From positions 1 to 64,000 of the forward strand of contig JACIWK010000011.1 in the NCBI GenBank assembly GCA_014360985.1: 64,000 nucleotides of DNA. The letters are read 5' to 3'. Below are positions 34,458-45,152 of this stretch, one piece after another. Position 1 is the first letter of the stretch; the number at the start of each line of letters is the position of its first letter. The notes beneath the pieces are model-generated. The model was not told the DNA's origin. It searched no databases and worked only from the letters and a program-made list of their open reading frames with translations. Origin of the DNA: Candidatus Bipolaricaulota bacterium (GTDB taxonomy: Bacteria; Bipolaricaulota; Bipolaricaulia; Bipolaricaulales; Bipolaricaulaceae). Both the position numbers and the translations under genes were made by a program.

Positions 34458-36617
34458 GTGACCCGGCTGGCGCTGCTTCTGGTGATCCTTCCCCTCCTCT
34501 CCCTCCCCGCGGCGGCCGGGCCGGAGAAGCTCGATCCCCTACTACGGGCTCTCGTCCAAGCGCGCGGGGTAGGCGGTCCGGTAGACCTCCTGTCCCCCGA
34601 GGTCCTCCCCACGCTCGTGGCGCTGGGGGGAGACGCGGCCCTCCCCCCCGCGGAGGGCGGGCCATCCGCCCCGCTGCGGGTGCTGCTCCTGACGAAGGAT
34701 CCCCAGGGAGCGTGGATGGTCCCCCTCTTCCGCCCCCATCAGGTGGTGGGGACGCTCGCCACCGGTGAGGTGGAGCTCGCCGATCTCGGGGCCCTCGCCG
34801 ACCATCCCCAGGTCGTCTACGTGCAGGCAAGCCGCCCCGTGTATCCCATGGTGGACCGGTCCGTGCCCGAGATCGGGGCCCCTGCCCTCTGGTACAGCAC
34901 TCCCGCCGCCACCGGTGAAGGGGTGATCCTCGGGGTTGTGGACACGGGGATCGACATCCTCCACCGCGATTTCCGGGTGGACCGCACGGGGGATGGGTTC
35001 GAGGAGGGGTCGCGGATCCTGTGGTTGTGGGACCAGACTGGGGTGGGTGCCACGGGGTTCCCGTACTGGTGGGGAGACGACCTCACGGGCGCAGAGGCCC
35101 ACTACGGACGGGCCTTCTCGCGACAGGAGCTGGAGATCGCGATCGCAACAGGCTCCCCCCCCACGCGGGACGCGAGTGGTCACGGGACCCACGTCGCCGG
35201 GATCGCCGCGGGGGACGGTTCCGCCTCGGGAGGCGGAATGCGCGGTGCCGCACCTGGAGCGGACCTCGTCATCGTGAAGACCACGTTCTACGAGGACACC
35301 GTGCTGGACGGGGTGCGGTTCGTGTTCGAGGCCGCGGAAGCGCTGGGGAAGCCCGCGGTCGTCAACCTGTCCCTCGGCGGGCACAGCGGCCCCCACGACG
35401 GGAGCTCGCTGTTTGAGCGGATGCTCGATGCCCTGGTCGACCGTCCGGGCCGGGCGGTGGTCGTCGCCGCGGGGAACGAAGGGGACCGCCGGATCCACAT
35501 CGGGGCCGACGTGCGGGCCCCGACCACGTGGCACCTCGAGGTGGAGAAGAGCACGGTCACCGTCCAACTCTGGCACAGCGGGACGGCGAGCTTCTCCACG
35601 GAGGTCCGCGCCCCAAGCGGCGAGACGGTGACCGTGCTCCCCGGAACGCAGCGCGGGGCATCGACATCCTCGGGTGGGGTGTGGCTCGATAACACCTCCC
35701 TCCCCGATCCCCGTAACCTGAGTCGCTACATCTACATCGCCCTCACCGATGTCACGCCGGGGGCAACGTGGGTGGTCACCCTCACCCCAATCCTCGGGGG
35801 GGGGCGGGTGGACGGGTGGGTGGAGAACCCCTCCTCGGCCCAGTTCCGGGAGGGGGACTCAAGGTCCACGATCAGCGAGCCGGGGAACGCCCACCGCGCG
35901 ATCACGGTCGGGGCGTATGTGACGAAGACGCAGTGGACATCCGTGGTCGGCAATCAGGCGGAGGAAGGGGAGATCGGAGCCCTCGCCTCGTTCTCCTCGC
36001 GCGGGCCGACGCGCGACGGGCGGGTGAAGCCCGACCTCGCGGCGCCGGGAGCATGGATCGCCTCCGCCCGCTCCTGGAACGTCACGACCGCCCCGCGGCT
36101 TACCCTACCGGGAGGGGAGTACACGATGCTCCTCGGGACGAGCATGGCTGCCCCTCACGCGACGGGAGCGGTGGCGCTCCTCTTCTCCCGCCAACCGAAC
36201 CTTACGTGGTCCGAGGTCAAGGATGCCCTCCTCTCCGGAGCGCGGGTCGACAGCCAGGTGGGGGCCACCCCCAACTACATCTGGGGCGCGGGGAAGCTGG
36301 ACGTGTCCCGTGCGGCGGCCCTCATCGGCAGCCCTGGCCCAGTGGAGCGACCCACCCTCACCCTCCTTGCCAACCCCGTGTCGCGGGAGGCGACCTTCCG
36401 CTACCACTGCCCCTCCGGAACGCGTTGGGCGAGCCTCCACGTGTACGACCTTGCCGGGAAGCTTGTCTCCACCCAGCTTCTCCCCCTCCCGTCCGGGGAC
36501 GCGCGGTGGACGGTCACCACGTCCGACGGCCGGGCCGTGGCGAGCGGCCTGTACCTCGCCGTCCTCGTTACGGACCGCGCGCAATCCGAGATCGTCCGGG
36601 TGGTGGTCCAGCGATGA
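34458..36617 (+). CDS. Secreted subtilisin-like protease with a C-terminal sorting-tail/FlgD-like domain
   Basis: 719 residues. The GTG start gives a signal peptide (1-21, LLLVILPLLSLPAAA). A prodomain-like region runs to about 130. The S8 catalytic triad is D162 in VVDTGID, H242 in SGHGTHVAG and S562 in GTSMAAPHATG; a beta-rich insert of about 150 residues separates the oxyanion Asn region (AAGNEGD) from the Ser. The last ~80 residues (ANPVSREATFRY, VYDLAGKLV, ASGLYLAVLV, ending EIVRVVVQR) resemble the type A tails of type IX secretion cargo and FlgD-like domains. The stop overlaps the next gene by 4 bp, tying it to a PorV-like protein. Confidence 0.9.
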   Translation: MTRLALLLVILPLLSLPAAAGPEKLDPLLRALVQARGVGGPVDLLSPEVLPTLVALGGDAALPPAEGGPSAPLRVLLLTKDPQGAWMVPLFRPHQVVGTLATGEVELADLGALADHPQVVYVQASRPVYPMVDRSVPEIGAPALWYSTPAATGEGVILGVVDTGIDILHRDFRVDRTGDGFEEGSRILWLWDQTGVGATGFPYWWGDDLTGAEAHYGRAFSRQELEIAIATGSPPTRDASGHGTHVAGIAAGDGSASGGGMRGAAPGADLVIVKTTFYEDTVLDGVRFVFEAAEALGKPAVVNLSLGGHSGPHDGSSLFERMLDALVDRPGRAVVVAAGNEGDRRIHIGADVRAPTTWHLEVEKSTVTVQLWHSGTASFSTEVRAPSGETVTVLPGTQRGASTSSGGVWLDNTSLPDPRNLSRYIYIALTDVTPGATWVVTLTPILGGGRVDGWVENPSSAQFREGDSRSTISEPGNAHRAITVGAYVTKTQWTSVVGNQAEEGEIGALASFSSRGPTRDGRVKPDLAAPGAWIASARSWNVTTAPRLTLPGGEYTMLLGTSMAAPHATGAVALLFSRQPNLTWSEVKDALLSGARVDSQVGATPNYIWGAGKLDVSRAAALIGSPGPVERPTLTLLANPVSREATFRYHCPSGTRWASLHVYDLAGKLVSTQLLPLPSGDARWTVTTSDGRAVASGLYLAVLVTDRAQSEIVRVVVQR

Positions 36618-37417
36618 GGGCGATCGCGGTCGTGCTCGTCGTCGGGGTGGGATTGAGCGGGATCGGCCAGGGGGTTGTGGGAGGGGACATCCTGTTCGAT
36701 CTGGCCACGGCACCCCGCAGCGTAGGGATGGGCGGGGCCGGGATCGCCCTGCCGTCCAACGGTGCCCTGTTCATGAACCCCGCCGGTCTCCCTTGGGTAG
36801 AGGGGGTTCAGCTGCTATCGTCGTACGGGGATCAGTTCGGGGCAGCACGCCTGGGGCTCGTGGCCGTGGCCGTGCCGGGCATCGCCGCCGCCGGGATCGT
36901 GCTCGATGCGGGGGAGATCGGGCCCGACCTCTCGTTCCGCACGGCGGGTGCCCTCCTCGGGATCGGGGTCCGGCTGGGGCCCCTGGGAGCGGGGGCACGG
37001 ACGCGGGTCCTGGTCCCGATCGCCCCCGTCCCTGGCGTGGGGGGGGCGCTCGATCTCGCGTTCCTGTGGCGGGGGCCGATCCACCTCGGGGCGATGTGGA
37101 AGGGCGTTTTCTCCCAGGCGCCGGTCGCGGGGGAGACCTGGCCCTCCCAGCTCGTGGTGGGCTTCGCCCTCCCCCTCGAGCTCGGTCCCGTGACCCTCGC
37201 CCTCGCCTGCGACCTCCTCGACCTGGGGGGGGACACCGCGTTCGCCGCGGGGGGCGAGCTGGGGATGGAGTGGCTTCTCGTTCGCGCCGGCTACGGACCG
37301 AGCGGGCTCGCGTTCGGGGGCACGGTGCGGTGGGGCCCGTTCGGGGTGGAGTGGGTGATCCTCGTCCATCCTGTGCTCCCCCCGGCCGTCCGCGTATCCT
37401 TCGCCGTGAGGATTTGA
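36614..37417 (+). CDS. PorV/UPF0164-like outer-membrane beta-barrel protein, first copy
   Basis: 267 residues with a signal peptide (1-23). The mature start DLATAPRSVGMGGAGIAL, then ALFMNPAGLPW, is the hallmark of the PorV/UPF0164 family (sRsvgmGgA..A......NPAgL). Alternating hydrophobic and glycine-rich strands continue to a C-terminal RVSFAVRI, ending as outer-membrane barrels do. In Bacteroidota PorV carries type IX cargo to the cell surface. Here it overlaps the subtilase upstream (ATGA) and the 1288-residue protein downstream (TGATG). A paralogue lies at 41280-42128. Confidence 0.78.
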   Translation: MRAIAVVLVVGVGLSGIGQGVVGGDILFDLATAPRSVGMGGAGIALPSNGALFMNPAGLPWVEGVQLLSSYGDQFGAARLGLVAVAVPGIAAAGIVLDAGEIGPDLSFRTAGALLGIGVRLGPLGAGARTRVLVPIAPVPGVGGALDLAFLWRGPIHLGAMWKGVFSQAPVAGETWPSQLVVGFALPLELGPVTLALACDLLDLGGDTAFAAGGELGMEWLLVRAGYGPSGLAFGGTVRWGPFGVEWVILVHPVLPPAVRVSFAVRI

Positions 37418-40400
37418 TGACCAAGGCCTTCCTTTCCCTCGTGCTCGTGGGCTTCATCGCCGTGGCCCAGCAGACCCCGAGCTTCGACCTCGTCGTGCGC
37501 GGGGAGAAGACGTGGACGATCCGGCTCGGGTGGGGAGCGAGCGACCTCCTGGGCGCGGAGGGCCTCACCCCCGGGCAGCTGGCCCTCACCCAGACCCTCC
37601 GCGCCGAGATCGAAGGCACCGCCCTCGGTTTCCTCACCCTCCGCGCGAGCTTCAACGACCAGCTGGGACCTGGGTTCCAGGACTTCCTCCTCACCGTGGA
37701 CCGCACCCCATGGACCGGCGAGCTGGGGCGGTTCGTGGTCGGGGCGGAGGGAGAGGGCCTCGGCGTGTACAACAAGCGCGTCCTCGGGGCGCGCGTCACG
37801 TACGCAGGGGACGGGGCCTCGTTGGGTGCCGTCGTCACGCGGCTCGAGGGGGTCTCCGAGACCCGCACCTTCACCGGCGAGCGCGGGGAGGGCGAGGCCT
37901 TGTTCACCACGACCGACCCCGACGAGCCGTGGCGGGAGGCGCCGTATGGGCAGTCCGTGGAGGGGTTGGCCTACTGGCCGCTTTCGCTCCAGTTCGTGGA
38001 GGGGTTGTCCCAAGTCCGGCTCCGGCTGGAGGGGGGGATGGAGCTGTGGACGTTCCTCGCCGCCTGGGAGCTCGGGTACATCCGCGAGGATCTCGAGGCG
38101 GAGCGGGTCATGGACCTACCCGCGGGCCAGTACCTGGTGCTGCGCGAGGAAGGGGAGGCCGACGCCCTCGCGTTGCGCGTGGCCCCAGCCGCGATCGCCC
38201 GCCGCCGGATCCAGGACGCGATCGATGCCCACAACACCCGGCTCGGCCTGACCGATGACAACCGGAAGGCGTACCCCTTCGTCGAGGGGAGCGAGCTCGA
38301 GACGCGCTTCCTTTCCGAGCTGGGTCGGTTCCTGGCCGTGCTCGTGGACGAGGATGCCTACCCGTTCTCCCAGGCGCAGCGCCGGCGCTACCTGTACCTC
38401 GGCGAGCCCGATGTGATCGCGGACACGGTGGAGGTGTGGATCCGTCGGCCTGGGGAAACGGACTTCCGTCCCCTTCCCGATCCCACCCTCGCGGACTTTG
38501 TGTGGACGCTCCTCCCCGCGCCGGGCGTCCTCCGGGTTTCGTTCCCGGATACCTTCTTCCAAGGGGGGGCCGTCCAGGTGGGGTTCGCCTACCAGCGGGA
38601 GGGAAGCACGTTCGCGCTCGGCCTCAGCCTGGTGCCAGCCTCGGACCAGGTGCGCCGGAACGGCCAGCTCCTCACGCGAGGAGTGGACTACGCGATCGAT
38701 TACGAAAGCGGACTGCTGATCCTCTTCTCCCCCCTTGGGCCGGAGGAGGAGCTGAAGGTGGACTTCGAGCGCCAGCGGGGGGGCCTCGGTGGGTACGCGG
38801 ACTACGAGAGGGACCTCTTGGGCCTCGTGTTGAACGTTCCCGGGTGGGATGGGTTCAAGCTCGCCCTGTACCGAGCCCACGACCTCGGTGCCCCCCGCCC
38901 GACCACGGCCACCATGCCCAACACCCACACCGTGGCTGCCCTGTCCCTGGCCGGCAGGATCGGGGAGTGGACGTACCGCCTCGCCGTCGGGGGATCGGAG
39001 AACGTGTTCCCGTCCGACGACAACGCCCGGATCCCCACCCCGAACCGAATCAACGCCATCGCCGCCGCCTCCGCCGCCGACGGGGCGTACGTCGTGTTCG
39101 GGCACCAGAACGGGTTGACGGTGTACAAGGATGGCCTCTTCACCAGCTACGGGACTGCCCACGGCCTCTCCGGTCGGGCCGTTCATGCTCTCCTCGCTGT
39201 CCCGGACAGGCTCCTCGTGGGCACGGACGCCGGTCTGACGATCGTTCGGCTCGTGGAGGCAACGCCGTTCGACCGCGTGCGGAGCTGGGTCCGGCTGTTT
39301 GAGGACGACGGGGTTCCCGGGACGGAGGTCCTCGCCCTCGCCCACGGGGGAGGGCGGATCTACCTCGCCACCGAGAGCGACGTGGCCTCGCTCCTCACCG
39401 CCGATGCCGAGACCCCAGACCGGTGGGAGAGGCTCGGGCTCCCCGAGGAGGGGCCGCGCCCGACGACGCTCCTGTGGGCCGACGAACGGTTGTACCTGGG
39501 GACGGAGGAGGGGCTGTTCGTGAGAGAGGGAGAAGCATGGACCCTCCTCCCCGAGGCTCCGGGGCCGGTGCACGCCCTCGCTGCGCGCGGAGAGGAGCTA
39601 TATGTTGCGTCCGAGGAGGGGATCCGAATCGTCCGTGGGGGGCGCGGGGCGGGATGGATCGCTCCCGGACAGCCGGTGTACGGGATGGCGTTCCACGAAG
39701 GCGTCCTGTGGTATGCGACGGGGAATGGCCTGTGGAGGGAGGGGGAGGCCGCACCGGTGGCCCAGGCGCCGATCGTGGCCGTGGGCGCCGCCGGGGGCGC
39801 GGTGTGGGCTGGGGAAAAGGCAGATGAAGCGTTCACCCTCCACCTGTGGCGGGTCGCCGCGACCACGGAGCGGTTCCCCCAGACCCGGACCAAGCTCGAC
39901 GGGCGCGACCTCGCCCGGTTCCAGGACATCCCGGCGGGAGAGCACACCCGCTACGGAGCGATGGGAAGCCTCAACCTGAGCCGCACCCTGGGGGACTGGC
40001 AATGGGAGCTCCAAGCCGCGACCCGGCTCCCCGGTTACGAGGAGATCGGGCGCGCGGGCCGCTCCGATAGCCACAGCCTCGGGTTCACCGCGCGGTACGT
40101 TGGCGATGGCCCGTCCAGCCTCGCGGTCAGTGGACGGTGGAACGTGGCCGATCTCCTGACCGAACCTGCGGGGAAGCTCAGCGCGGCGTTGGACTGGCGC
40201 TGGTCCGGCCCGGTGACGATCACCGTCTCCCTCACCCCGACCACGATCGGTACGGGGCTGGTCCCCTTCGCTGGGGTGGAGAGCGGGTGGCGGGCGGGGA
40301 TTTCCGGCCAGAGCGGGGCCCTGACGTGGAGCGTGACCACAAGCGGTACGGGGACCTGCCCTGAGCCCTCCGCCGCCGGCCAAGTTGGGGCCAGCCTCTC

Positions 40401-41283
40401 CTTTCCCCCGCTTCAGGGGTGGACCGTGAGCGGGAGCTGGTCGCGGCCGTTCCGGACGTCGGGGAAGCCGGGAGACGAGTCGATCGCCCTCACGGCGAAA
40501 GGGACCGGGGAGATGGGGCCAATCGGGTGGACGGCGACCGTCCAGGAGTCCCTCCGGCACTCCCTGGCCACCGGAACGTGGCGCGAGGAGCGGACGGTCG
40601 CCCTCACCCTGCGGAGGGGATCGCGGCTCGTGGGACCGATCGAGGTCACGCCGCGGTTCTCGGGGTCATGGAAGACGACGGCGACGGAGTGGCGGTGGAG
40701 CGGGCAGTTGAGCGCGGACCTCGTCCAGGCGCCGGCCTCGCTGCGCCTCAGCGTAGGAGTGGGACAGGGGTACCGCCCCCTCACCGCGCGTTCCGACCGC
40801 TCCCTCACCCTGTCCATGACCTGGGAGCACAGCGGATGGGGCGGGATCCGACCGTCCATGCGCTGGGACCGGTCATGGACGCTCCTTTCTCACCCCCGCT
40901 ACGACGACCAGCTCACGGAAAAGGAAGAAGCGACGCTGCGGGTGACGTGGGAGCCGGCAGGGGCCCAGTGGCGGGACACGTTCGCTCTGGTGTGGAAGCC
41001 GCGCGAGGGATCACTTGCCGTGACGAACCGCCTGTCGTGGCCGCTCGAGTCAGGTTCGGTCACCGCCGAAGGGGGCCTCACCGTGAAGGAGGGGGTGATC
41101 GACGCGAAGGCCACCGCTCAGCTTGGGATCCCCCTTGACGCCCTGCTTGCCGCGCTCGGGAGGGGGCCCGTCGGCGACGCGTGGGGGCTAAGCGCGGATG
41201 CCACTTACGCGCTGCACCTCCCCGCGGGTGCCGCGCCCACCCAGACCCTGTTCGTGGGGGCGACCCTCGCCGTCCGGTTCTAG
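37417..41283 (+). CDS. 1288-residue outer-membrane candidate with an internal beta-propeller
   Basis: Signal peptide at 1-18 (MTKAFLSLVLVGFIAVAQ). Residues ~20-210 are strand-rich. Residues ~310-450 contain VEVWIRRPGETDFRPL and GVDYAIDYESGLLILFSPL, a pattern also found in SprA-like and other large surface proteins. Residues ~550-815 form a propeller with repeats such as GLTVYKDGLFTSYGTAHGL, LLVGTDAGLTIV, LYLGTEEGLFV and LYVASEEGIRIV, as in two-component-regulator propellers. From ~820 to the end alternating strands finish in FVGATLAVRF, an outer-membrane barrel ending. Its neighbours on both sides are PorV-like proteins. I do not recognise a named family for the whole protein; a translocon or surface-assembly role is inferred from context. 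Confidence 0.7.
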   Translation: MTKAFLSLVLVGFIAVAQQTPSFDLVVRGEKTWTIRLGWGASDLLGAEGLTPGQLALTQTLRAEIEGTALGFLTLRASFNDQLGPGFQDFLLTVDRTPWTGELGRFVVGAEGEGLGVYNKRVLGARVTYAGDGASLGAVVTRLEGVSETRTFTGERGEGEALFTTTDPDEPWREAPYGQSVEGLAYWPLSLQFVEGLSQVRLRLEGGMELWTFLAAWELGYIREDLEAERVMDLPAGQYLVLREEGEADALALRVAPAAIARRRIQDAIDAHNTRLGLTDDNRKAYPFVEGSELETRFLSELGRFLAVLVDEDAYPFSQAQRRRYLYLGEPDVIADTVEVWIRRPGETDFRPLPDPTLADFVWTLLPAPGVLRVSFPDTFFQGGAVQVGFAYQREGSTFALGLSLVPASDQVRRNGQLLTRGVDYAIDYESGLLILFSPLGPEEELKVDFERQRGGLGGYADYERDLLGLVLNVPGWDGFKLALYRAHDLGAPRPTTATMPNTHTVAALSLAGRIGEWTYRLAVGGSENVFPSDDNARIPTPNRINAIAAASAADGAYVVFGHQNGLTVYKDGLFTSYGTAHGLSGRAVHALLAVPDRLLVGTDAGLTIVRLVEATPFDRVRSWVRLFEDDGVPGTEVLALAHGGGRIYLATESDVASLLTADAETPDRWERLGLPEEGPRPTTLLWADERLYLGTEEGLFVREGEAWTLLPEAPGPVHALAARGEELYVASEEGIRIVRGGRGAGWIAPGQPVYGMAFHEGVLWYATGNGLWREGEAAPVAQAPIVAVGAAGGAVWAGEKADEAFTLHLWRVAATTERFPQTRTKLDGRDLARFQDIPAGEHTRYGAMGSLNLSRTLGDWQWELQAATRLPGYEEIGRAGRSDSHSLGFTARYVGDGPSSLAVSGRWNVADLLTEPAGKLSAALDWRWSGPVTITVSLTPTTIGTGLVPFAGVESGWRAGISGQSGALTWSVTTSGTGTCPEPSAAGQVGASLSFPPLQGWTVSGSWSRPFRTSGKPGDESIALTAKGTGEMGPIGWTATVQESLRHSLATGTWREERTVALTLRRGSRLVGPIEVTPRFSGSWKTTATEWRWSGQLSADLVQAPASLRLSVGVGQGYRPLTARSDRSLTLSMTWEHSGWGGIRPSMRWDRSWTLLSHPRYDDQLTEKEEATLRVTWEPAGAQWRDTFALVWKPREGSLAVTNRLSWPLESGSVTAEGGLTVKEGVIDAKATAQLGIPLDALLAALGRGPVGDAWGLSADATYALHLPAGAAPTQTLFVGATLAVRF

Positions 41284-42128
41284 AACTTCACCCCAAACCC
41301 GAACCGGTGCGAGGCCGACAGCACCGGATGCGTGAGCAGGGCGTAGTCGAGGACGAACATCCCCCATTCCACGCCGAGGCCGAACGCCCACTGGAGCACC
41401 CCCTGCAGGCGCAGCCCGGCCCGGACCTCGACCAACCTGGCCCAGCTCCAGCCCACGCCGACCGCGGAGTACTCCGAGGTCAGGTCGAGGGCGACCGTGA
41501 GCCCCAGCGGGTGCCTGAGGCCAAGCCCGAGGGCGAACGCGGTCGACCAGCCGTCCCCTTCCTCACCGATCGTCGGCCCGAACCCGAGCTCCTGGATCGC
41601 GATCCCCAGCCGCCCTTCTCCGAACGGGGTCGTGGTGCGGCCGAGGAACCCGAAATCGAGGGCGAACCCAGAGCCGCCTTCCTCTCCGGCCCGCACGGTG
41701 TTGTACTTGATCCCCACCCCCGCCGCGGCCGGGAACGGAACGATCCGGAACGGCCCGAGGTCGAGCCCCGCCGCGATCGCCAGAGCGAACTGAGAGAAGG
41801 GAAGCGGGTTCCCCTCAGGGTCCTCAATCCCGCCCACGCCGAGGTAGGCCAGGCCCCCCCCGAGGTTCGGCATCGCCGCGGCAAGCCACGTCACGGAGTA
41901 GATCCCGAGGATGCTCGACAGGCTGGAATCGGCACGCATCCCGGAGGTCCAACCGAGCCCCGCCGGGTTGGCGAGGAGGGACTCCGAGCCCTCGGCGAGG
42001 GCCGTTTGGGCGCCGCCGAACCCCATCGCCCGCACCCCGAGCCCGGCATCGAACGGGTTCGGCATGCCCTGGCCGAGGGCGCTGCTCCCCATCAGGGCCA
42101 GAATCAGCAGAGCTAGCTTCGTACGCAT
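41280..42128 (-). CDS. PorV/UPF0164-like outer-membrane beta-barrel protein, second copy
   Basis: 282 residues with a signal peptide ending near GSSALGQ (residue 20). PFDAGLGVRAMGFGGAQTALAEG and SLLANPAGLGW match the family start, and the protein ends HRFGFGVKF. It is paralogous to the protein at 36614 but only modestly similar. It converges on the 1288-residue gene with a 4-bp overlap and lies 9 bp after the PKD-domain gene on its own strand, so it is co-transcribed with that probable cargo or surface protein. Confidence 0.78.
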   Translation of the reverse strand: MRTKLALLILALMGSSALGQGMPNPFDAGLGVRAMGFGGAQTALAEGSESLLANPAGLGWTSGMRADSSLSSILGIYSVTWLAAAMPNLGGGLAYLGVGGIEDPEGNPLPFSQFALAIAAGLDLGPFRIVPFPAAAGVGIKYNTVRAGEEGGSGFALDFGFLGRTTTPFGEGRLGIAIQELGFGPTIGEEGDGWSTAFALGLGLRHPLGLTVALDLTSEYSAVGVGWSWARLVEVRAGLRLQGVLQWAFGLGVEWGMFVLDYALLTHPVLSASHRFGFGVKF

Positions 42129-42137
42129 GTCTCCTCC

Positions 42138-45100
42138 CTACCGAACGACGAGGATCTTCCCGACCTCGGACCGCTCCGTCCCCTCTCCAACGGTGGCCGT
42201 GACGAGGTAGACGTAGAGCCCGTCGGCGATCCTCCGCCCGGCGTTGTCGGTGAGGTCCCACGTGAACGGGTTCCCCGTCACATCCTGGGCCACGACGGGC
42301 CGGCCGAGGGCATCGAAGATCTGGATCTTCACCCCCGTCGCCCCCTGGGGAAGGAAGAGCTGGATCCGGCACCGGGTCGAGGCGGGGTTATCGAGGACCT
42401 TCGTCCCGATGAGGGCTCCACCCTTCGGCCGTACGTACACGTTCAGCGAGAACCAGTCCCCGAACCCCTCAGCGTCGCGGGCGCGTACCTCGACCTGGAA
42501 CACATTTGAGGCTGCAAACGTGTGGGAAGCGGTGTTGGCGGTCGTGGCCAGAACGGCAGAGCCGTCACCGAAGTCCCACTCGTAGCCCGTGATCGGATCG
42601 CCGTCCGGATCAGTGGCCGTGGCCGTGAACGTGGCCACTTGGCCCACTTCGGGCACCGGCGGGGTCACCGTAACCCGCGTCACGCTCGGCCGGCGGTTCA
42701 CCGGGGTTTCGGTCACGGTGATCGTCTTCTCCTTGCGCCCGGTCTCCCCGCGGCTGTTGGTCACGGTGAGGACGACTGTGTACGTCCCGGCCGCGGTGTA
42801 GGTATGCCGGGGATTGGCTTCCGTGGAGGTCCCGCCGTCGCCGAACGTCCAGGCGTACGTGTACGGGGTGAGCGGTGGCGTGGCGGGGTCCGTCACGTTC
42901 GAGGTGAACGCGACCTCCCGCCCCACGGATGGCGCATCGGGGGAGAAGCTGAAGTCCACCACCGGCTGTTTGCCGATCACGTCCACCTGGCGCGTCTTCG
43001 CGGTGGACAGGCCCCCTTCGCCCGTCACCGTCAGGGTGACCTGGAACGTGCCGCCGATCGCGAACCTGTGGGTGACCGGTGCTGAGCCCTTCGTCTGGGC
43101 CGTTTTGCCATCGCCGAAGTTCCAGTGGAACGTGGCATTGGCAATGTTCCCCGACGGGTCGGCGATCCCCGCCGCGGGTGTGAACGTCACATCCACCCCT
43201 GCCTCCGGCGCAGTGGGCGCCCAACTGAAGTCCACCCCCGTCGGGCGCTGACCGATCGCCGTGGTGAACGTGGCCGGGCCCGCCAATGCTTCTGTCTGGA
43301 ACGTTGCCGTACCTTCGGTGTGCCAGACGACGGTCTCCAGCTTGAGCTTCCGCCCCGCGGGGGACGTGTCCTTCAGCGTCACCCAGATCTGGAGCTCGAC
43401 GCTCGTGTCGTCCGGCACGACGTTGTTCTCCGCCGTGACCACGCGGACCCCGGCCAGGCTCAGCCCCACCGGGTTCGTAACCTCGCCGAGGAGCTTCCCA
43501 TCGGACTTGCGGCGCACCTCGATCCGGGCCACGTGTTGGTCGGCGAGGGGACTCGCGGCCTCCGTGTTCCGGATCATGAGCGACGTGATCACGACATCGT
43601 ACGGATCGAGGTCGTCGTCCTGGAGGTCGAGCCGCTGGGCGAGGAACCGTACCCCCTGGAACACCGTCCGGTTCGCCATCTCTACCGTCGTGGCCTGGTC
43701 GAAGCCCTTGGCCCCCTCTTCCTCCGGGCCGGTGGTGAACTCCGCCCCGTCCAGGGGGTCCTCGCCGGTTCCGGGCTTGCCGAACGTCTTCGTGTCCTCT
43801 GTGTGCCAGACCACGGTCCGGAGCTGGATCACCCGGCCATGGGGCACGTTGTCCTTGAGGGTCACCCACAGCTCGATGACCTCGGATGTGTCGTCGCGCA
43901 CGACGTTGTTCGCTCCGGTCGTGATGCGCACGCCGCCTGAGTTGAGCCCGGAGACGCTCGTCACCGACCCCATCACCGCCCCGTCGCGGGCGCGGACGAC
44001 CTCGATCGAGGCGATCTGCGTGTCGGCGAGCCGCGTCGCGGGATCGGCCACGTTCTGCACGACGACCGAGTTGATCAGCACGTCGTACGGATCGAGATCG
44101 TCATCCACGACCTTGATCCGCTGGGCGAGGAACCGTTGCCGAGAGAACACCCGCCCGCCCGTGAGACCGAGGTTCACCAGCTCCTCGAACCCCTGCGGCT
44201 GCCCGACCGTGAATTCCGCTCCGGGGCCCGCGTTGAAGTCCGTGCCCCCGCACCGCACGCTGGCTTGTAGTTTCAGCTTGTGCCCAGTGGGGGCGTCCCC
44301 TTTCAGCGTGACCCAGATCTCGAGGAACACCGTGCTGTATGCGGGGAGCTTGTTGTTGGACGACGTGGTGACGGCCGTGCCCGTGGTGGTGAGCTTCGCG
44401 ATCTCTGTGCTCGTGGCCTCGCCGAGGAGGGCGCCGTCGCTCGCCCGGCGGACCTCGATCGCCGCGACGTACGAGCCGGACAACGGGGTCGCATCCGTAT
44501 TGGCCACATTCTTGACAAGGAGCCGGCTGATCGTGGTCTCGAACGGGACCTCTTCCGCGTCGACCTCGATCCGGCCGGCCAGGAACCGCTCGCCGCGGTA
44601 CACGTTGGCACCCACGACCGACCCGTCGAACGCGATCGCCGGCGACGGCCCGACGGTGAACACCGTCGCAGCGGGCGGGTAGGTGATGGGCACACTCTCG
44701 ATCTTCGTGTCTCCCAGGGCGAGGTTCCGTTCCAGAGGCACATCTGCCTTGAGTTTGATGAGGACGTACAAGTAATGGGTGCCCACAGCGAAATTGCGGA
44801 TCGAAGCCGTGGTCACCGTGGAGAAGGTCACCCCAGTCGTATGAAAGTTGGTGAGCCCCGACGTCAGTTTCCTCAGGACCGGGCCGGTCCCGCTATCGCG
44901 GCGAACCTCGATGTACTCGATCTCCGCCCCCTGCGCCGGATTGCCCGCAGTGTTCTTGACAGTGAGTTCTGTGACGGCTTTGGCCTCCCCTGTCACCACG
45001 ATCTTGATCTTTTGGGCCAAGACCAAGGCTCCCGGATTGACCTTCAGATCATCGCCACTGAGCCCGAGATCCTCGTTGGTATAAGTGGCTGCTCCCAACG

Positions 45101-45152
45101 CGATCGGCGCCGCCAGCCCCACCGCCAACGCGACCAACAGAAAGCGTCTCAT
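42138..45152 (-). CDS. Surface protein with tandem N-terminal repeats, PKD domains and a sorting-tail-like C-terminus
   Basis: 1004 residues, signal peptide 1-20, start after GTGAGGAGG. Residues ~20-630 hold four tandem modules of about 150-170 residues; shared blocks are RFLAQRI, DDDLDPYDV, IASIEVVR, GVRITT-x-NNVV, and LWVTLKD. Three PKD domains follow, with HWNFGDG, AWTFGDGG and EWDFGDGS. The final ~85 residues (DNPASTRCRIQLFLP, IQIFDALGRPV, IADGLYVYLVT, EVGKILVVR) match type A sorting tails of type IX cargo. It is probably exported and surface-attached. Its operon partner is the PorV-like protein downstream. Confidence 0.82.
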   Translation of the reverse strand: MRRFLLVALAVGLAAPIALGAATYTNEDLGLSGDDLKVNPGALVLAQKIKIVVTGEAKAVTELTVKNTAGNPAQGAEIEYIEVRRDSGTGPVLRKLTSGLTNFHTTGVTFSTVTTASIRNFAVGTHYLYVLIKLKADVPLERNLALGDTKIESVPITYPPAATVFTVGPSPAIAFDGSVVGANVYRGERFLAGRIEVDAEEVPFETTISRLLVKNVANTDATPLSGSYVAAIEVRRASDGALLGEATSTEIAKLTTTGTAVTTSSNNKLPAYSTVFLEIWVTLKGDAPTGHKLKLQASVRCGGTDFNAGPGAEFTVGQPQGFEELVNLGLTGGRVFSRQRFLAQRIKVVDDDLDPYDVLINSVVVQNVADPATRLADTQIASIEVVRARDGAVMGSVTSVSGLNSGGVRITTGANNVVRDDTSEVIELWVTLKDNVPHGRVIQLRTVVWHTEDTKTFGKPGTGEDPLDGAEFTTGPEEEGAKGFDQATTVEMANRTVFQGVRFLAQRLDLQDDDLDPYDVVITSLMIRNTEAASPLADQHVARIEVRRKSDGKLLGEVTNPVGLSLAGVRVVTAENNVVPDDTSVELQIWVTLKDTSPAGRKLKLETVVWHTEGTATFQTEALAGPATFTTAIGQRPTGVDFSWAPTAPEAGVDVTFTPAAGIADPSGNIANATFHWNFGDGKTAQTKGSAPVTHRFAIGGTFQVTLTVTGEGGLSTAKTRQVDVIGKQPVVDFSFSPDAPSVGREVAFTSNVTDPATPPLTPYTYAWTFGDGGTSTEANPRHTYTAAGTYTVVLTVTNSRGETGRKEKTITVTETPVNRRPSVTRVTVTPPVPEVGQVATFTATATDPDGDPITGYEWDFGDGSAVLATTANTASHTFAASNVFQVEVRARDAEGFGDWFSLNVYVRPKGGALIGTKVLDNPASTRCRIQLFLPQGATGVKIQIFDALGRPVVAQDVTGNPFTWDLTDNAGRRIADGLYVYLVTATVGEGTERSEVGKILVVR

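Follow-up and report, generated by a model that had tools for sequence, protein, structure and literature searches.

Whether an outer-membrane protein export route related to the type IX secretion system (T9SS) exists outside the Bacteroidota is the question raised by five adjacent genes, here termed A to E, at positions 34458-45152 of the window, i.e. the whole 64,000-nucleotide stretch of DNA that was analysed. This window corresponds to contig C3 of a genome of 1.56 Mb, estimated to be 94% complete, which named homologues place among Candidatus Bipolaricaulota (Acetothermia, OP1). The first-pass annotation had described a subtilase, two PorV-like proteins, a 1288-residue protein and a PKD protein at these positions, and all five are indeed present. 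It is likely, in our judgement, that the products of A to E constitute a reduced T9SS-like outer-membrane export pathway, apparently devoid of motor and sortase, in which each cargo protein has its own carrier. The features concerned are listed here, with CTD denoting the C-terminal domain.

34458..36617, plus strand: gene A, exported subtilase of 719 residues with a C-terminal sorting-type tail (PF00082; D/H/S motifs; terminal tail)
36303..36614, plus strand: tail (CTD) of A (tail model; TIGR04183, 19.8 bits, slightly below cut-off)
36614..37417, plus strand: gene B, PorV-family outer-membrane barrel, putative carrier for A (NF033709 PorV_fam; family profile; gene position)
37417..41283, plus strand: gene C, SprA-like outer-membrane barrel protein of 1288 residues, putative translocon (TIGR04189 in homologues; PDB profile; Foldseek; co-linear N-terminal half)
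38629..38775, plus strand: residues 405-453 of C, conserved module (matched by the SprA model at profile positions 604-654)
39082..39876, plus strand: residues about 556-820 of C, beta-propeller insert of Reg_prop/PorZ type (profile matches; strand pattern of the model)
39904..41280, plus strand: residues about 830-1288 of C, C-terminal barrel part with 26 predicted strands (AlphaFold2 model)
41280..42128, minus strand: gene D, PorV-family outer-membrane barrel of 282 residues, putative carrier for E (NF033709; AlphaFold2 model; PorV structural match)
42138..45152, minus strand: gene E, exported PKD-repeat protein of 1004 residues with a C-terminal tail (PKD_4, 1.2e-40; FlgD_ig)
42141..42452, minus strand: tail (CTD) of E (TIGR04183, 23.3 bits, above cut-off in the genome search; tail model)

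The genes form two convergent sets, A-B-C on the plus strand (34458-41283) and E-D on the minus strand (45152-41280), which meet stop-to-stop at 41280-41283. Overlaps of 4 nucleotides (A/B), 1 nucleotide (B/C) and, between the stops of C and D, 4 nucleotides were observed, whereas D starts 9 nucleotides past the end of E. The overlaps from which co-translation of cargo and PorV-like proteins had earlier been proposed are accordingly present in A-B-C but not in E-D.

Tailed proteins and their putative carriers

Both A and E begin with a hydrophobic, signal-like segment (judged by eye), and A contains a subtilase domain (PF00082, E-value 1e-42) with the D/H/S motifs at residues 160, 242 and 560. 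Each protein terminates in a domain of approximately 85 residues that is named FlgD_ig in Pfam and T9SS type A sorting domain in NCBIfam. Sorting-type tails had been suspected on both, and were recognised by TIGR04183 (E above the cut-off, A slightly below), by a Pfam search with FlgD_ig (0.0026 for the A tail, 7.6e-7 for the E tail) and by a phylum-specific model built from the tails of relatives. In the genome search the last of these, which includes the window tails among its building sequences, found A at 1.0e-34 and E at 1.2e-29, with both matches ending exactly at the C-terminus; the tails are on this evidence more than a chance resemblance. All strong tails in the relatives likewise lie at the C-terminus or a few residues from it; TIGR04183 matches 44 of 46 tails and FlgD_ig 35 of 46. 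Comparison of the tail profile with solved structures ranked the CTDs of PorU (3.8e-11) and PorZ (5.5e-7) above FlgD (2.8e-4), and the FlgD Ig domain was rejected as the closest relative on these scores; two CTDs whose structures were determined within the SprA translocon ranked behind FlgD (0.002 and 0.011). The conserved C-terminal sorting domain that marks T9SS cargo is therefore present, with TIGR04183 as its family and the PorU and PorZ CTDs as its closest relatives in the PDB.

The tail is not confined to A and E; confinement to these two proteins was among the findings that the first-pass annotation had named as refuting its proposal. In the window genome the count of tailed proteins is three, and between 3 and 40 were counted per genome, the higher numbers in class relatives, across 16 Bipolaricaulota genomes (all either draft or of 90-99% estimated completeness, mostly the former, and two of them single-contig). 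The third tailed protein in the window genome is a 1004-residue open reading frame without a Pfam match at the end of contig C8 (L059:67-3078); the contig ends 66 bases downstream, cutting the locus exactly where the PorV-like gene sits in relatives, and the counterpart of this cargo has a PorV gene in genomes G003, G004, G006, G007 and G009. Two other FlgD_ig matches in the window genome, in a subtilase on contig C1 and a 256-residue protein on contig C37, are internal domains and were dropped as tails. The former is a second subtilase (L060:2914-7788), a 1625-residue frame with PKD repeats and an internal, non-terminal FlgD-type stretch.

The putative carriers B and D share 31% identity. When searched singly with the NCBIfam model PorV_fam (NF033709), B was matched at 0.0038 and D at 1.6e-10, with window members falling below the curated cut-off of the family, while 42 of 46 homologues of B and D were matched (best 1.5e-29). 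The profile of the B/D family matched PorV of the Flavobacterium johnsoniae translocon (6h3i_F) at 6.5e-11, as against 0.4 for a FadL-type protein, and AlphaFold2 folded D into a barrel of 14 strands (pLDDT 88), for which the best PDB match is again 6h3i_F (TM-score 0.77). With 14 strands and PorV as the closest solved relative, the proteins belong with the PorV family of the FadL superfamily, and a PorV-type carrier, as found in T9SS, is represented at the locus. Of the initial description of two PorV/UPF0164-like barrels flanking a large protein, the PorV part stands, whereas UPF0164, matched by just 3 of the 46 family members, was discarded.

Where relatives offer sufficient sequence, the order of tailed protease, PorV-like gene and C is kept almost without exception. 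The 16 genomes hold 53 PorV-like genes, 49 of which come immediately downstream of a tailed gene; of the remaining four, one (G020:C183) is truncated by the end of its contig. In the single-contig genome G004, each of the three tailed proteins is paired with one of three PorV-like genes. Overlaps of 1 or 4 nucleotides occur in 28 of 59 unique tail-PorV pairs. Distances between tails follow those between PorV proteins (r 0.86), and where a locus has two pairs, r was 0.94 for the pairing as observed and had a median of 0.23 for swapped pairings, with 4 of 8192 arrangements, counting the observed one, performing equally well. The evidence for PorV homology and for one-to-one linkage of cargo and carrier is strong.

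Several related loci were also recorded. Class relatives (L056:3-7005, L054, L100, G031 and G028) show clusters of tailed proteins, tandem tail-PorV pairs and many tails without a PorV neighbour. Among metagenome-assembled genomes (MAGs) labelled Bacillota, the order is tail-PorV-C at L104 and L110 and PorV-tail-C at L107; ExbD is present in the genomes of L104 and L110, unlike the Bipolaricaulota searched, and these three MAGs are either misnamed or form a lineage of their own. A block of Bipolaricaulota type is also carried by contigs named Thermotoga sp. (L069) and Neomarinimicrobiota (L092), which probably derive from mislabelled MAGs.

The large protein C

C is a core gene, normally in single copy: 35 of 40 relatives carry it, as do 23 of 24 good genomes. 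The search with an SprA model and the strand count by structure prediction that had been recommended for it gave the following results: TIGR04189 matched 29 of 30 homologues of C (best 3.2e-9), and in the AlphaFold2 model of residues 89-1288 (pLDDT 86) we counted about 36 long strands apart from those of the propeller, which is a count of strands and not of one closed barrel. The 1288-residue outer-membrane candidate is now a predicted outer-membrane barrel protein with SprA as its best structural match. A profile of C homologues matched SprA in the PDB at 3.8e-5, and the N-terminal half of C aligned over 433 columns with an SprA-like protein of Aerophobetes (2.8e-22), 343 columns with that of Poribacteria and 415 columns with Hydrothermus SprA, all reversed-profile controls for these comparisons having E-values of 0.1 or greater. 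Foldseek returned SprA as each of the top four PDB matches of the model (1e-16 to 2.3e-9), a likeness of local topology rather than a superposition. LptD (4.5e-9) and the surface-layer barrel SlpA (3.7e-6) were weaker matches than SprA (1e-16), and LptD or a porin was rejected as the identity of C on this basis. Residues of about 556-820 form a beta-propeller of Reg_prop/PorZ type inside the channel protein.

The conserved module of C was not accepted by itself as proof of SprA identity, as it is also present in module-only proteins of 968 residues (Fibrobacter) and 996 residues (Hydrothermus). These outer-membrane-type proteins (L193:3496-6399 and L194:3173-6160), the host genomes of which also carry SprA, appear from sequence to be a branch separate from both C and SprA. 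The stretch between N-terminal block and module spans roughly 10-35 residues in these paralogues and about 250 residues in C, and it is this long stretch, as found in SprA-like proteins, that sets C apart from them. On predicted structure and sequence, C is referred to as SprA-like, and identity as SprA is not claimed.

Motor and sortase searches and the competing explanations

A lack of PorU- and GldKLMN-like genes was the last of three findings that, in the first-pass annotation, would have spoken against the proposal; the other two did not materialise, but this one did for GldL, GldM and the PorU peptidase. Sequence models for GldL, GldM, the PorU C25 peptidase and the ExbD/TolR-type motor found none of the four in the 16 genomes, GldK, GldN, PorW/SprE, Skp and the peptidyl-prolyl isomerase (PPI) subunit not having been searched. 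GldL was detected in all three controls and ExbD in its controls; the GldM model was silent in the first controls, and a Bacteroidota panel searched as positive control gave matches above the cut-off in 7 of 31 genomes. In the case of PorU, matches in Bipolaricaulota were limited to the CTD end of the model, the peptidase part being matched in control genomes of Rhodothermaceae, Hydrothermus, Fibrobacter and Poribacteria. No motor-like or ring-like genes were seen beside the A-E block. Since the motor and sortase features searched were not found, the locus does not qualify as a full T9SS: the earlier label of a type IX-like export module is retained for its parts, but not as a type IX system itself. 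The locus is T9SS-like in its parts and probably so in its action.

From the homologies, gene order, pairing and failed component searches we infer how transport, lateral exit, energy supply and retention could proceed. The signal-like N-termini suggest that Sec would deliver A, E and the third tailed protein to the periplasm, from where the cargo CTDs would enter the lumen of C, the SprA-like barrel. Each CTD would be bound by a PorV-family barrel of its own, the product of the gene immediately downstream of that cargo's gene (B in the case of A, D in that of E), and this barrel would take the cargo sideways out through C and hold it on the surface. Export would be driven by capture and by folding outside, the latter making it one-way. 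Cargo would presumably stay on its carrier, with no cleavage or lipopolysaccharide (LPS) linkage, given that the searches yielded no motor or PorU and that the relative Ran1 is reported to lack LPS genes (PMC6092417). Treating the five genes as one export route is still an inference, as it was in the first-pass annotation, although phylum-wide linkage now stands behind it.

Several observations weigh against this scheme. A motor-less SprA channel would lack precedent, and blocking the motor of F. johnsoniae causes cargo to stall in the channel (PMC10994853). TIGR04189 matched 77 of 100 genomes in the phylum search, in each case with a score far short of the curated cut-off; in the profile comparison, no sequence similarity to SprA emerged for the C-terminal barrel of C; the structural match to SprA has a low TM-score (0.29) and a large root-mean-square deviation; and the conserved module recurs in further outer-membrane proteins, which are shorter. 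The co-variation between tails and carriers would also arise if the two members of a pair were duplicated together. Finally, G031 has 40 tailed proteins and 3 PorV-like genes, and as tails outnumber PorV genes in class relatives such as this one, carriers there must be shared and cannot all be private.

Among the alternatives, a complete and strongly diverged T9SS, with motor, ring and sortase in forms that sequence models miss, survives best, and is nonetheless considered unlikely. Such divergence would be consistent with the incomplete or draft state of the genomes and with the components left out of the search, and the GldL and GldM models were also silent in Fibrobacter (G103) and Hydrothermus (G104), genomes with SprA above the family cut-off and PorU-like proteins. 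However, four components went unmatched in all 16 genomes, two of them single-contig, while controls in the same or a parallel search were positive, and the surroundings of the block are free of motor- or ring-like genes. Judged on sequence matches, the Fibrobacter and Hydrothermus genomes suggest that motor-less or diverged systems may extend beyond Bipolaricaulota.

More improbable still is that no secretion takes place: C would be a large surface or scaffold protein of the outer membrane, and tailed proteins would arrive by another route and be anchored by the PorV-like barrels. The propeller, the SlpA matches and the mere three tailed proteins of the window genome would suit such a role; against it, SprA far outscores SlpA as the fold match, almost all relatives have C in linkage with a tailed protein and a PorV gene, and no other route for outer-membrane proteins was identified, none having been searched for. 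The proposition that the tails are ordinary FlgD-like Ig domains in a coincidental gene order, with C exporting something else, e.g. lipid in the manner of LptD, draws on the Pfam naming of most tails and on LptD being the next outer-membrane fold behind SprA, but is already largely refuted, and is given very little credence, by the higher scores of the PorU and PorZ CTDs and of SprA, by the C-terminal position of the tails and their PorV neighbours, and by the reported lack of LPS genes in the closed genome of Ran1.

Known systems and implications

The reduced export pathway favoured here most resembles the T9SS translocon of F. johnsoniae (SprA-PorV; PDB 6h3i, 8gl6 and 8gl8), with which it shares an SprA-like channel, a PorV carrier and cargo with type A-like CTDs, and in which the best PDB matches of both C and D are found. 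SprA of F. johnsoniae is about 2400 residues long, whereas C has 1288, includes a beta-propeller and shares an operon with cargo and carrier; GldL, GldM and the PorU peptidase distinguish that system further. With PorU-PorV and PorZ of Porphyromonas gingivalis the locus has in common a tailed protease adjoining a PorV gene, tails closest to the PorU and PorZ CTDs, and a propeller resembling that of PorZ. A is a subtilase, however, and not a C25 sortase, the propeller lies inside the channel protein, and LPS genes are not reported for Ran1. A carrier gene directly downstream of the cargo gene is also seen with type B CTD cargo and cognate PorP/SprF carriers (PMC12618676), but the Bipolaricaulota carriers are of the PorV family and the tails are like type A and PorU CTDs. 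The SprA-like proteins of Hydrothermus, Aerophobetes and Poribacteria are co-linear with C in the N-terminal half and occur in genomes with tailed proteins, but are longer (1660-2200 residues); PorU peptidase is present in Hydrothermus and Poribacteria, and ExbD in all three, neither being found in the 16 Bipolaricaulota genomes.

T9SS genes have been stated to be absent outside the FCB (Fibrobacteres-Chlorobi-Bacteroidetes) phyla (PMC11285876), and the system to be exclusive to Bacteroidota (PMC12618676). A literature search, which did not cover subscription papers or preprints, found no earlier report of such a pathway in Bipolaricaulota. The PorZ-like propeller in C, the phylum-wide conservation and the private carrier per cargo go beyond the first-pass annotation. 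The finding also bears on Poribacteria, for which tailed proteins without Por secretion genes or a known secretion route were described in 2014 (PMC3909097): the genomes searched hold SprA-, PorU- and PorV-like genes, and SprA-like proteins of approximately 2200 residues, a peptidase of PorU type, numerous PorV-like genes and 55 tails were recorded (L111-L120, G102).

Chances are about even that Bipolaricaulota possess a phylum-wide export pathway outside the FCB group, with an SprA-like channel, no motor, sortase or LPS, and a private PorV for each cargo; it could feasibly be the simplest known or the ancestral form, to which the T9SS then added motor, ring and sortase. The operon makes the function of an SprA-type channel without GldLM a testable question. 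The genome of Ran1, the first closed genome of the phylum, was judged to leave its mono- or diderm status ambiguous and to lack adhesin and LPS genes (PMC6092417); the conserved operon of SprA-like channel, PorV and tailed cargo supports the presence of an outer membrane in Bipolaricaulota, and offers a route for protein export.

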